Source: Gluconobacter thailandicus F149-1 = NBRC 100600 (GTDB lineage Bacteria; Pseudomonadota; Alphaproteobacteria; Acetobacterales; Acetobacteraceae). Taken from it: a DNA stretch of 64,000 bases. The stretch covers positions 62,001-126,000 of the forward strand of contig NZ_BANH01000015.1 in the NCBI RefSeq assembly GCF_000964465.1. The letters run 5' to 3'. The first letter of the stretch is position 1; every line of letters starts with the position of its first letter. Positions 44,828-47,520 of the stretch are shown piece after piece. The translations under genes and the position numbers were made by a program. Below the pieces are notes generated by a model. It did no database searches and was not told the DNA's origin. It saw only the letters and a list, made by a program, of their open reading frames with translations.

Positions 44828-44942
44828 GCTGTCTCCTGGTCGCCCGCAGAGGAGAATGACCCATGCCGTCCGTTCCGAAAGCTCTCTCTTTGCTTCCCTG
44901 TAGCGTGTTTGATTTCCTCTCCGGACGGGGATGAGAGCAGTC

Positions 44943-45848
44943 ATGCGTATTCTTCTCACGGGTGGGCATGGGTTTGTCGGAACACACCTGAAAACACGGC
45001 TGAAAGAGCGCCTTCCGGATCATGTGCTGATTGAAGGACAAATGGATATTCTGGATCGCGAGGCAGTAGAGCGCGTCGTTCAGGATACTCGGCCAGAAGC
45101 CTGCATTCATCTGGCAGCCGTTTCATCTGTTCTGGAGGCCAGTCAGGACACCCGACGCGCCTGGCAGGTTAATCTGGATGGTACGATGAACCTTGCGGAA
45201 ACATTCCAGCGCCATGCGCGGCATATCCGCTTTGTTTTTGTGTCCTCCGCTGAAATCTACGGAGCATCTTTTTCGGAAGACAAACCTCTGGATGAGACAG
45301 CAACTGTTGCTCCTCTGAATTCCTATGCTGCCAGCAAGGCTGCGGCCGACATGGCGGTAGGAATGTTGGCAAAGGAAGGGCTGCATGCTGTCCGGATGCG
45401 TCCCTTTACGCAGGCAGGGAGTGGGCAGGACGCGAATGCCATTCTCCCATTCCTGGCTGCTCAGGTCGCACGGGTCGAAGCGCACCAGCAGGATGAGATT
45501 ACCCTTGGTCATCCGGATGCTGGTTATGACATTCTGAATGTCCGGGATGCCTGTGACGCGTATATTGATGCCCTGAAGCTTCCGCAGGCTCCGGCCGATG
45601 GCACAGTTCTGAATATCTGTAGCGGTCAGACACGGACAACCGGTTCTATTCTGAATGACCTGATGGCTCTGGCGGATATGAAGGCGGAAATCCGGCTTGA
45701 TCCGGCGCACCTTGCGCCTTCAGGTCTGCAAAACATGCAGGGTGATCCGCGGGAAGCGCAACACCTCCTTGGATGGGCGCCTCAGATCTCGTGGAACAAT
45801 ACGCTTGAGGAAGTGCTGAATGACTGGCGCTGGCGTATCCGGTCCTGA
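44943..45848 (+). CDS. NAD-dependent epimerase/dehydratase, GDP-4-keto-6-deoxymannose reductase-like
   Basis: Extended SDR of 301 residues. The cofactor motif MRILLTGGHGFVGTHL is at the N-terminus, then CIHLAAVSSV, FVSSAEIYGASF and the catalytic Tyr-x-x-x-Lys in NSYAASKAAADMAVG, followed by RMRPFTQAGSGQ. This pattern is closest to Rmd-type reductases of deoxysugar-nucleotide pathways (GDP-rhamnose). ATG 44943 gives the normal start; the longer frame to 44931 adds four residues. It converges on a heptose phosphatase gene, suggesting a surface-polysaccharide role. Confidence 0.87.
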   Translation: MRILLTGGHGFVGTHLKTRLKERLPDHVLIEGQMDILDREAVERVVQDTRPEACIHLAAVSSVLEASQDTRRAWQVNLDGTMNLAETFQRHARHIRFVFVSSAEIYGASFSEDKPLDETATVAPLNSYAASKAAADMAVGMLAKEGLHAVRMRPFTQAGSGQDANAILPFLAAQVARVEAHQQDEITLGHPDAGYDILNVRDACDAYIDALKLPQAPADGTVLNICSGQTRTTGSILNDLMALADMKAEIRLDPAHLAPSGLQNMQGDPREAQHLLGWAPQISWNNTLEEVLNDWRWRIRS

Positions 45849-45853
45849 CGGAA

Positions 45854-46888
45854 TCAGGGGAGGAGATCCATCGTCCAGTCGAAGAGGGTCTTTTCAGGTG
45901 TGACCTGATAGGCCGCCATGCCGGCTGCTTCGGCGGCCTGAAGATCGGTTTTCTGGTCGCCAATCAGGAAGCAGTCGGCAGGGCGAAGGTCCCATTTAAT
46001 CAGCAGATCCTGGATCATGCCCGGAGCTGGTTTTCGCCATTCACTGTTTTGCCGGTATTGCTCAAGCGGTGCTGTGGGGTGAAAGGGGCAGCAGCGCCAG
46101 TCATCTACCGTCGCTCCTTCTGACCGGATGGTGGCAATGGCCCAGCCCATCAGGTTTTTGACGTCTTCTTCACTGTAATATCCACGCGCCACGCCGGACT
46201 GGTTGGTCACGATGAAGATATGTCGTCCGCTGCGGGCAATGCGACGTAGAGCAGAGAAGGTTCCGGTAATCCATTCGAACCGGTTCTGCGTACCAATGTA
46301 ACCATGATCGTAATTCAGGACTCCATCCCGATCCAGAAAGACCGCAGGCCGGTGCAATGGGTAGGTGGAGAGGGGAAGGGTGTCGGGTGTCAGAACCGGG
46401 GAGTCTATGGATGTGGTCTGGCAGTGTTTGTTGAGCAGGTCCGTCAGGGATTCTGAGGCAGGAATAGACTCCAGCATCTGTCTGGTTAGGAGCGTCAAGG
46501 CGGGCGTGTCGTGCGTGCCTGCAACACTTCGTGGCGCCTCCAGATGTCCGTTCATCAGTGGGAGCAGCGGAAAGACAGCGCCGTCACACAGACGGTCTCC
46601 TCGTGCCAGAAAAAACGTCTCTGAAAGCAGGGGAGCAAGCTGTTGCAGTGCTCCGGCCGTGAGGGCCGAAAGAGTGTATGTTTTCAGAGTGCCTTGAAGG
46701 GGAAGCTTGTCACAGAGGGGCGCCAGAAAGTCTGCCGTTTCCTTCGCCATGAGAAGCGTCACATTGGTTATGCCAAAGCGCTGATAGTCCCTGAGAACGC
46801 GAAAGAGAAAAGAGTGCCCCGCATGAGTGCGCAGTACATTTTCAGGGTCAGGAAAAAGCAGAACGCAATGCGGGACGCCAGTGATCAT
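45854..46888 (-). CDS. HAD-family heptose-bisphosphate phosphatase fused to a nucleotidyltransferase-like domain
   Basis: 344 residues in two parts. Residues 1-150 resemble a sugar-nucleotidyltransferase fold (HAGHSFLFRVLRDYQRFGITNVTLL) but lack the GGxGTRL signature. Residues 185-344 are a complete HAD-IIIA phosphatase of the GmhB type: FLDRDGVLNYDHGYIG, IFIVTNQSGVARGYYSEED, the Cys/His zinc-loop region CCPFHPTAP, RKPAPGMI and LIGDQKTDLQAAEAAGM. GmhB removes the 7-phosphate from heptose 1,7-bisphosphate. The ATG overlaps the gmhA stop (ATGA), so both are cotranslated. Confidence 0.87.
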   Translation of the reverse strand: MITGVPHCVLLFPDPENVLRTHAGHSFLFRVLRDYQRFGITNVTLLMAKETADFLAPLCDKLPLQGTLKTYTLSALTAGALQQLAPLLSETFFLARGDRLCDGAVFPLLPLMNGHLEAPRSVAGTHDTPALTLLTRQMLESIPASESLTDLLNKHCQTTSIDSPVLTPDTLPLSTYPLHRPAVFLDRDGVLNYDHGYIGTQNRFEWITGTFSALRRIARSGRHIFIVTNQSGVARGYYSEEDVKNLMGWAIATIRSEGATVDDWRCCPFHPTAPLEQYRQNSEWRKPAPGMIQDLLIKWDLRPADCFLIGDQKTDLQAAEAAGMAAYQVTPEKTLFDWTMDLLP

Positions 46889-47520
46889 ACGTCTGGTGTT
46901 TGAGGGCACAAAGCGCGTTCTACGAGGGCACAGACAATATGCGCCGCTGCGATATGCATCTGCTGGATCAATGGCGTCCATGTAGACGGAACACGCAGGA
47001 CGAAATCGGCATCTGGCAGTTCACCGCAGTTTTCTCCGGTGAACACGACTGTTGTGACGTTCTGGGCACGGGCGGCCTTGAGCGCCTGTACGATATTTGG
47101 GGAGCGGCCTGAGGTCGTGATGCCCAGAAAAATGTCTCCTTTCCGTCCCAGTGCAAGCACCTGCCGGGAAAAGACATGGTCGAACCCATAATCATTGCCT
47201 ATAGCCGTCAATCCGGATGTATCCGTGGTCAGCGCGATAGCGGCCAACGGGCGACGGTCATACATCAGGCGGGCAGTAAATTCGCCGGCAATATGCTGGG
47301 CATCTGCGGCACTGCCACCGTTACCAGCCACCAGAAGTTTTCCGTCTTTTTCCAGTGCTGAAGTGATGGTCAGGGCAATTCCGGCCATCATGTCAGCGCA
47401 GGCTTCATGCTGGGAGAAGGCGAGCATGGTTTCGGCAGACTGGCGGAGATAATCCTGCAGATAGTCCCGCTCGGAGGCTGGAAGGCTGTTCAGCAGGTCG
47501 GATGTCTGGAATGTGGACAT
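46885..47520 (-). CDS. gmhA: phosphoheptose isomerase
   Basis: SIS-fold enzyme of 211 residues that converts sedoheptulose 7-phosphate to D-glycero-D-manno-heptose 7-phosphate. LLVAGNGGSAADAQHIAGEFTARLMYDRRPLAAIAL and TDTSGLTAIGNDYGFDHVFSRQVLALG are nearly invariant in GmhA, and FLGITTSGRSPNIVQAL follows. The start at 47520 gives the family length; upstream frame to 47655 is not conserved. The pair gmhA and phosphatase points to LPS or glycan heptose; a heptose kinase is not in the window. Confidence 0.93.
   Translation of the reverse strand: MSTFQTSDLLNSLPASERDYLQDYLRQSAETMLAFSQHEACADMMAGIALTITSALEKDGKLLVAGNGGSAADAQHIAGEFTARLMYDRRPLAAIALTTDTSGLTAIGNDYGFDHVFSRQVLALGRKGDIFLGITTSGRSPNIVQALKAARAQNVTTVVFTGENCGELPDADFVLRVPSTWTPLIQQMHIAAAHIVCALVERALCPQTPDV

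Follow-up and report, generated by a model that had tools for sequence, protein, structure and literature searches.

In bacterial heptose synthesis genes, what does it mean when a phosphatase carries a nucleotidyltransferase-like domain that has lost its nucleotide loop? The question is raised by a locus of the window, i.e. the whole stretch of 64,000 nucleotides of Gluconobacter DNA analysed here, in which a gmhA-like gene is followed by a gene for a phosphatase of the HAD superfamily with such an N-terminal domain. We asked what this domain derives from, whether it may still act, and which pathway the phosphatase serves.

Organization of the locus

The features of the locus are collected in Table 1. 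The end of gmhA (47520..46885) and the start of the fusion gene (46888) overlap by the four nucleotides ATGA, as the first-pass annotation had read. This start is backed by the orthologs of two other genomes of the genus (G125 and G126), both 344 residues long and 81% and 76% identical to the window protein; as the open frame of G126 spans just 345 residues, a start elsewhere is hardly possible. Among named sequences, the one closest to the fusion protein (81% identity) is from Gluconobacter frateurii, near copies of the window genome possibly being excluded from the comparison. We rejected an artefact or a pseudogene as the source of this frame, given the two equal-length orthologs and the strong constraint on the phosphatase.

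Table 1. Features of the locus, with positions in the window
Feature	Position	Strand	Basis
gmhA-like sedoheptulose-7-phosphate isomerase (SIS_2), 211 aa	46885..47520	-	Pfam SIS_2, NCBIfam TIGR00441, GNGGSA motif
Fusion gene: degenerate HddC-like nucleotidyltransferase + GmhB-like phosphatase, 344 aa	45854..46888	-	same-length orthologs in G125, G126
Fusion residues 1-175: degenerate nucleotidyltransferase domain	46364..46888	-	profile match, predicted fold, alignments
Fusion residues 178-344: GmhB-like HAD-IIIA phosphatase	45857..46357	-	model matches, HAD motifs
SDR, GDP-6-deoxy-sugar reductase-like (Rmd), 305 aa, convergent on fusion gene	44931..45848	+	best PDB sequence matches 6x3b, 2pk3

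The gmhA protein scores 80.8 bits against Pfam SIS_2, above the cut-off of 27, and 177.1 bits against the gmhA model TIGR00441, below the cut-off of 209.45, which is reached by none of the seven genus genomes with a match. It is the sole TIGR00441 match of its genome (E<=1e-5). The convergent gene, already described as GDP-deoxysugar reductase-like from the letters of the sequence, encodes an SDR whose closest PDB sequences are indeed GDP-6-deoxy-D-mannose reductases. The group formed by gmhA, the fusion gene and the SDR gene is flanked by an OprB porin gene and an alpha-amylase-family gene. An Rmd-like SDR adjoins gmhA in six further genomes of the genus (G124, G125, G126, G129, G134 and G143), and in four of these (G124, G129, G134 and G143; loci L169, L170, L171 and L172) the two genes form a convergent pair with no fusion gene between them. 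The order of the window, with gmhA directly upstream of the fusion, recurs in the wider family (e.g. L007, L008, L012 and L020). The window genome (G000) is an assembly of 3.43 Mb in 191 contigs, with a completeness of 100%.

The N-terminal region of the fusion protein

The N-terminal region was invisible to searches of Pfam (E<=1), NCBIfam (E<=0.1) and PDB sequences (E<=10), and the HddC model NF049965 gave no match in it. In contrast, when 30 intact nucleotidyltransferase domains, none of them from the genus, were combined in a profile, it matched residues 22-109 at E=7.2e-9, and the top-scoring of 441 controls (for each of 21 degenerate domains, 20 shuffles and one reversal) reached E=0.65, all profile E-values being set for 1000 sequences. 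A lineage-specific profile was thus required to detect this relic. The nucleotidyltransferase origin that the first-pass annotation had proposed for an extra N-terminus of some 150 residues is upheld by this match, its length being closer to 175 residues.

A model of residues 1-175 (pLDDT 73.7, pTM 0.76) has as its best VIA-align 2 match the HddC of Yersinia pseudotuberculosis (PDB 5xhw; Z 15.1 over 164 residues, rmsd 2.7), and Foldseek ranked two MurU chains first and HddC third. An unrelated fold had been named as the outcome that would speak against a nucleotidyltransferase; the fold predicted is that of HddC, in a model guided by an alignment that holds intact relatives, so that the fold and homology evidence are not independent. 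The alignments confirm that the GGxGTRL loop is missing; the following PKP lysine and the C-terminal third are lost as well, and all three are kept in the intact relatives. Asp98 of the former NGD(S) motif is kept, as RGDR (96-99). The data support the view that the relic derives from a sugar-1-phosphate nucleotidyltransferase and is now a dead domain, one of the two readings first offered for it.

The phosphatase half

HAD motifs I-IV are all present in residues 178-344: DRDG (186-189), TNQSG (228-232), RKP (285-287) and GDxxxD (310-315). In alignments of 12 and 17 sequences DRDG, TNQ(S)G, RKP, G310, D311 and D315 are invariant, S231 being so in the 12-sequence set only. The domain exceeds the cut-offs of the HAD-IIIA subfamily models (TIGR01662, 94.7 against 44.6 bits; TIGR01656, 104 against 84.15 bits) and stays under those specific for GmhB (NF006506, 125.1 of 178 bits; TIGR00213, 118.9 of 149.6; NF050049, 83 of 250). 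We therefore name it GmhB-like. Two intact fusions likewise fall short of the GmhB cut-offs, with 136 and 120 bits, and 151 and 144 bits. In a model of the whole protein the pLDDT is mostly above 90 over the phosphatase, and the first structural match is E. coli GmhB. The window sequence SEW (282-284) sits where E. coli GmhB has its second zinc Cys pair, a pair also missing in most of the fusions aligned. Hydrolysis of heptose 1,7-bisphosphate at C7 is the most likely, putative reaction of the domain.

Selective constraint on the two halves

Between the three orthologs, residues 1-170 show an omega (NG86) of 0.30-0.36 and the phosphatase one of 0.066-0.075, a four- to fivefold difference with the relic still below 1; gmhA (0.021-0.035) and the SDR gene (0.061-0.070) were compared in the same way. 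YN00 gave 0.42-0.47 for the N-domain against 0.045-0.069 for the phosphatase, and dN of the N-domain is 2.8-4.1 times that of the phosphatase. The intact N-domains of five fusions of the genus (10 pairs) have omega values of 0.05-0.16, and those of other degenerate fusions 0.20-0.31 in the 9 pairs with usable dS; omega is not given where dS is saturated (15 of the 21 pairs in group A, 3 of the 6 in group B). Two observations cut against the reading: in one degenerate pair, L070/L179, dN is equal in the two halves (ratio 1.0), and the window type, gap-free in one alignment, has a single gap run near the start in the alignment of this comparison of intact and degenerate fusions. An omega raised yet below 1 indicates that the relic is relaxed but constrained: either it still has to fold ahead of the phosphatase or it does something more, and such a residual role is possible.

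Intact and degenerate fusions in Acetobacteraceae

A search of 120 Acetobacteraceae genomes gave a match in 61. The common form in the family is an intact HddC::GmhB fusion, often with GmhA or HddA in the locus, as for GDP-heptose synthesis: the 29 loci L003-L031 comprise 21 fusions with an intact loop, 4 degenerate, 1 altered and 3 unclassed (masked, at a contig edge, or stand-alone). NF049965 matches the N-domain of both intact fusions tested, with 99 and 89 bits under a cut-off of 300. Within the genus, 13 genomes have only a degenerate fusion (the window species, two sister species and ten others), and three genomes with an intact copy have a second, degenerate one. Beyond the genus, five genomes of the family (G006, G020, G043, G106 and G111) and an uncultured member (L091) carry degenerate fusions too.

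Placed on a quick tree built from 74 phosphatase domains, degeneration has to be explained by five changes, only two of them forced by well-supported (starred) branches. This tree leaves out L019 (masked N-terminus), L028 (contig edge), L194 (a fragment), L199 and duplicate loci, and the altered loop of L026 was counted as neither intact nor degenerate. Decay has gone further in some relatives: L094 retains about 122 residues ahead of the phosphatase, and in G134 (L075:7024-7719) the fusion is cut to about the last 67 nucleotidyltransferase residues plus the phosphatase, adjoining gmd and rmd. Outside the family, a GmhB-like phosphatase of Halobacteriovoraceae (L134:3818-4933) has an N-terminal extension of about 200 residues in which the nucleotide loop was not seen.

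Association with the HddA kinase

HddA (NF049969, E<=1e-20) gave no match in the window genome. It occurs in 5 of the 26 genomes of the genus (G124, G129, G131, G134 and G142), exactly those with an intact fusion: 5/5 against 0/13 of the degenerate-only genomes (Fisher p=1.2e-4, a test that overstates independence since the genomes are related) and 0/8 of those in which GmhB occurs only as a stand-alone protein. Outside the genus, HddA is found in 24/32 genomes with an intact fusion against 1/5 degenerate-only genomes at a 200-bit line that was picked after the scores were seen and leaves matches of 102-172 bits uncounted (p=0.03), and in 27/32 against 2/5 at E<=1e-20 (p=0.06); relatedness inflates these tests as well. 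A clear exception is G020, with a degenerate fusion and an HddA of 426 bits elsewhere in the genome. The tie of HddA to an intact nucleotidyltransferase is looser outside the genus, which we count against the explanation preferred below.

The 52 genomes of the outside-genus search comprise 32 intact, 5 degenerate-only, 1 altered (G051) and 14 stand-alone, 11 of the last classed by open-frame length alone. Two of the 32 intact genes are incomplete, being split over two frames (G113) or cut by a contig end (G080). Seven of the 61 genomes (G015, G035, G075, G093, G108, G110 and G112) lie outside this search.

Heptose pathway genes of the window genome

The first-pass annotation saw no heptose kinase near the locus, which is correct, and proposed a check of the genome for hldE and hddA; HldE was found and HddA was not. 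The full HldE (485 aa) is encoded on another contig, with both domain models over cut-off; TIGR02199 scores 191 bits, over its cut-off, as does HldD at 371 bits (TIGR02197). HldE and HldD matches over cut-off are present in 26/26 genus genomes. The single GmhA and the single GmhB match of the window genome (E<=1e-5) both lie in the gmhA/fusion operon. With HldE, HldD, one GmhA and one GmhB present and HddA absent, the most likely role of the operon is to supply ADP-heptose synthesis. A precedent for a shared GmhB comes from C. jejuni, whose ADP-heptose cluster, according to an excerpt of PMC10680097, contains the gene for the GmhB that acts in GDP-heptose synthesis.

We also looked for a hidden second HddC, which is rejected as far as tested: two of the four NTP_transferase matches are RmlA and GalU, and the other two are frames of 496 and 464 residues. 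As a separate observation, the genus has two classes of HldD, about 39% identical (L183:6384-7730 against L067:5975-6973), one scoring about 370 bits in most genomes and the other, beside GmhB, about 420 bits.

AGE-family genes near hldE

GmhA (TIGR00441, E<=1e-5) is absent in 19 of the 26 genomes of the genus, though all have HldE and HldD. SIS_2 matches in these 19 are weak other proteins of up to 38 bits with their neighbours, with an exception of 142 bits in G137. Directly after an hldE, 10 of the 19 GmhA-minus and 2 of the 7 GmhA-plus genomes have an AGE-family gene (PF07221, GlcNAc 2-epimerase), a difference that is not significant (p=0.39); two of these genes were typed as PF07221 and the rest by BLAST. 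Two Gluconobacter genomes thus carry both gmhA and an AGE gene at hldE. Neither is found in G121, G122, G123, G127, G128, G130, G131, G135 and G136 (loci L221-L223, L225-L229 and L232), which still have HldE, HldD and a GmhB-like domain.

Among 78 loci (L091-L168, a set of 80 loci minus two of Gluconobacter), 22 have GmhA, 12 AGE, none both and 44 neither, where 3.4 with both would be expected (P=0.013). The 43 alphaproteobacterial loci among them divide into 11, 12, 0 and 20 (P=0.015). AGE genes near hldE or gmhB were seen in L072:4072-5382, L202:4529-5701, L205, L206, L207, L230, L231, L234-L238 and L243, and, in further Alphaproteobacteria, in L102, L106, L108, L109, L110, L116, L119, L122, L129, L139, L147 and L163. 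The Sandarakinorhabdus cassette (L108) combines HddA, an intact HddC::GmhB fusion and AGE, GmhA being absent.

The nearest solved relatives of these AGE proteins are GlcNAc and cellobiose 2-epimerases and, more weakly, sugar isomerases such as YihS; an excerpt of PMC7762179 describes an AGE epimerase/isomerase used for D-mannose synthesis. The AGE family may be a candidate alternative sedoheptulose-7-phosphate isomerase that replaces GmhA, on which nothing to the point was found in the literature, among the matches listed. Such an alternative would touch the first committed step of heptose synthesis.

Origin and role of the fusion protein

The explanation that we favour, and consider probable, is loss of the GDP-heptose branch and decay of the HddC half, with the phosphatase now working in the ADP-heptose route. 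The HddA kinase would have gone first; the HddC half would then have shed its nucleotide loop and C-terminal third, the GmhB half meanwhile remaining under strong selection. The phosphatase would now most likely dephosphorylate the heptose 1,7-bisphosphate made by GmhA and the HldE kinase, its product being converted by HldE and HldD to ADP-heptose. Homology, the lost motifs, the kept phosphatase motifs, gene content and relative rates are observed; the reaction of the phosphatase, the anomer it uses and the order of the losses are what we infer from them. Against this explanation speak the scores of the phosphatase below the GmhB cut-offs and the 9 of 26 genus genomes that lack GmhA and have no AGE gene at hldE, which show that the heptose pathway of the genus is only partly understood.

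The N-terminus might instead be a retained pseudoenzyme that holds an oligomer together, docks GmhA or senses GDP- or ADP-heptose to regulate the phosphatase, in the manner of GMPPA. This is possible and, in our judgement, rather doubtful. The relic omega below 1 in three orthologs of equal length, the values of the other degenerate copies in the nine usable pairs and the predicted persistence of the nucleotidyltransferase fold are consistent with it, and catalytically dead regulators of this fold exist, GMPPA being described as such in an excerpt of PMC11228364. The relic nevertheless evolves with four to five times the omega of the phosphatase (NG86), and its persistence in frame may merely reflect its location ahead of a needed domain; relatives with only a remnant (L094 and L075) and stand-alone GmhB proteins argue that the domain is not generally needed. 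A slightly less probable, and on balance unlikely, form of the idea is that the dead HddC domain was kept as a useful NDP-heptose sensor or as a GmhA or oligomer dock, with feedback on the phosphatase and several such conversions in one family.

We regard as improbable a switch of the phosphatase to a different substrate, by which it would act alongside the convergent Rmd-like reductase in making a GDP-6-deoxy-sugar. An Rmd-like SDR adjoins gmhA in seven genomes including that of the window, and five other genus loci (L070, L075, L174, L179 and L180) have gmd and rmd paired next to a degenerate fusion; against this, the motifs and conservation of the phosphatase match the GmhB-like half of intact fusions, the three window-type loci all lack a dehydratase, and the phosphatase is the only GmhB match of its genome. 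By far the least credible proposal is that of a divergent yet active GDP- or ADP-heptose synthase, the other reading of the first-pass annotation. It has in its favour the predicted fold and the remaining Asp98, and is contradicted by the loss of the GGxGTRL loop, the PKP lysine and the C-terminal third, by a genome without HddA, by an HldE that brings its own adenylyltransferase and by the relaxed constraint on the N-domain.

Within a single genus, the fusions form a graded natural series that begins with an intact bifunctional enzyme and ends with a dead-domain remnant, and in this genus the series is linked to absence of the partner kinase. This series is a test bed for the origin and persistence of pseudoenzyme domains, and degenerate fusion proteins should not carry a heptose guanylyltransferase annotation.

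Comparison with known systems

Among the matches listed from the open-licence literature, judged by titles and opening lines of abstracts, nothing describes this protein, either under HddC-GmhB fusions or in work on Gluconobacter heptose and lipopolysaccharide; for Gluconacetobacter entanii, an excerpt of PMC9818992 merely lists gmhB as a marker gene. Among characterized proteins, HddC (PDB 5xhw and 6jq8) is the best VIA-align 2 structural match of the relic, which differs from it in lacking the nucleotide loop, the lysine, the last third and a match to NF049965. The phosphatase shares the HAD-IIIA motifs of E. coli GmhB (PDB 2gmw and 3l8e), with 33-34% identity in the structural alignment, but is fused to a degenerate domain and scores under the NCBIfam GmhB cut-offs. 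The intact HddC::GmhB fusions of Acetobacter musti (L093), Asaia (L092), Methylobacterium aquaticum (L107) and Massilia (L130) have the domain order of the window protein and, in L093, L107 and L130, gmhA upstream as in the window; unlike it, they keep the nucleotide loop, and HddA is in the locus of the same three. GMPPA, the non-catalytic paralogue of GDP-mannose pyrophosphorylase, resembles the relic in having a nucleotidyltransferase fold without catalysis (GMPPA/GMPPB complexes, Z 13-14), but is a separate regulatory subunit, whereas the relic is fused to its phosphatase.
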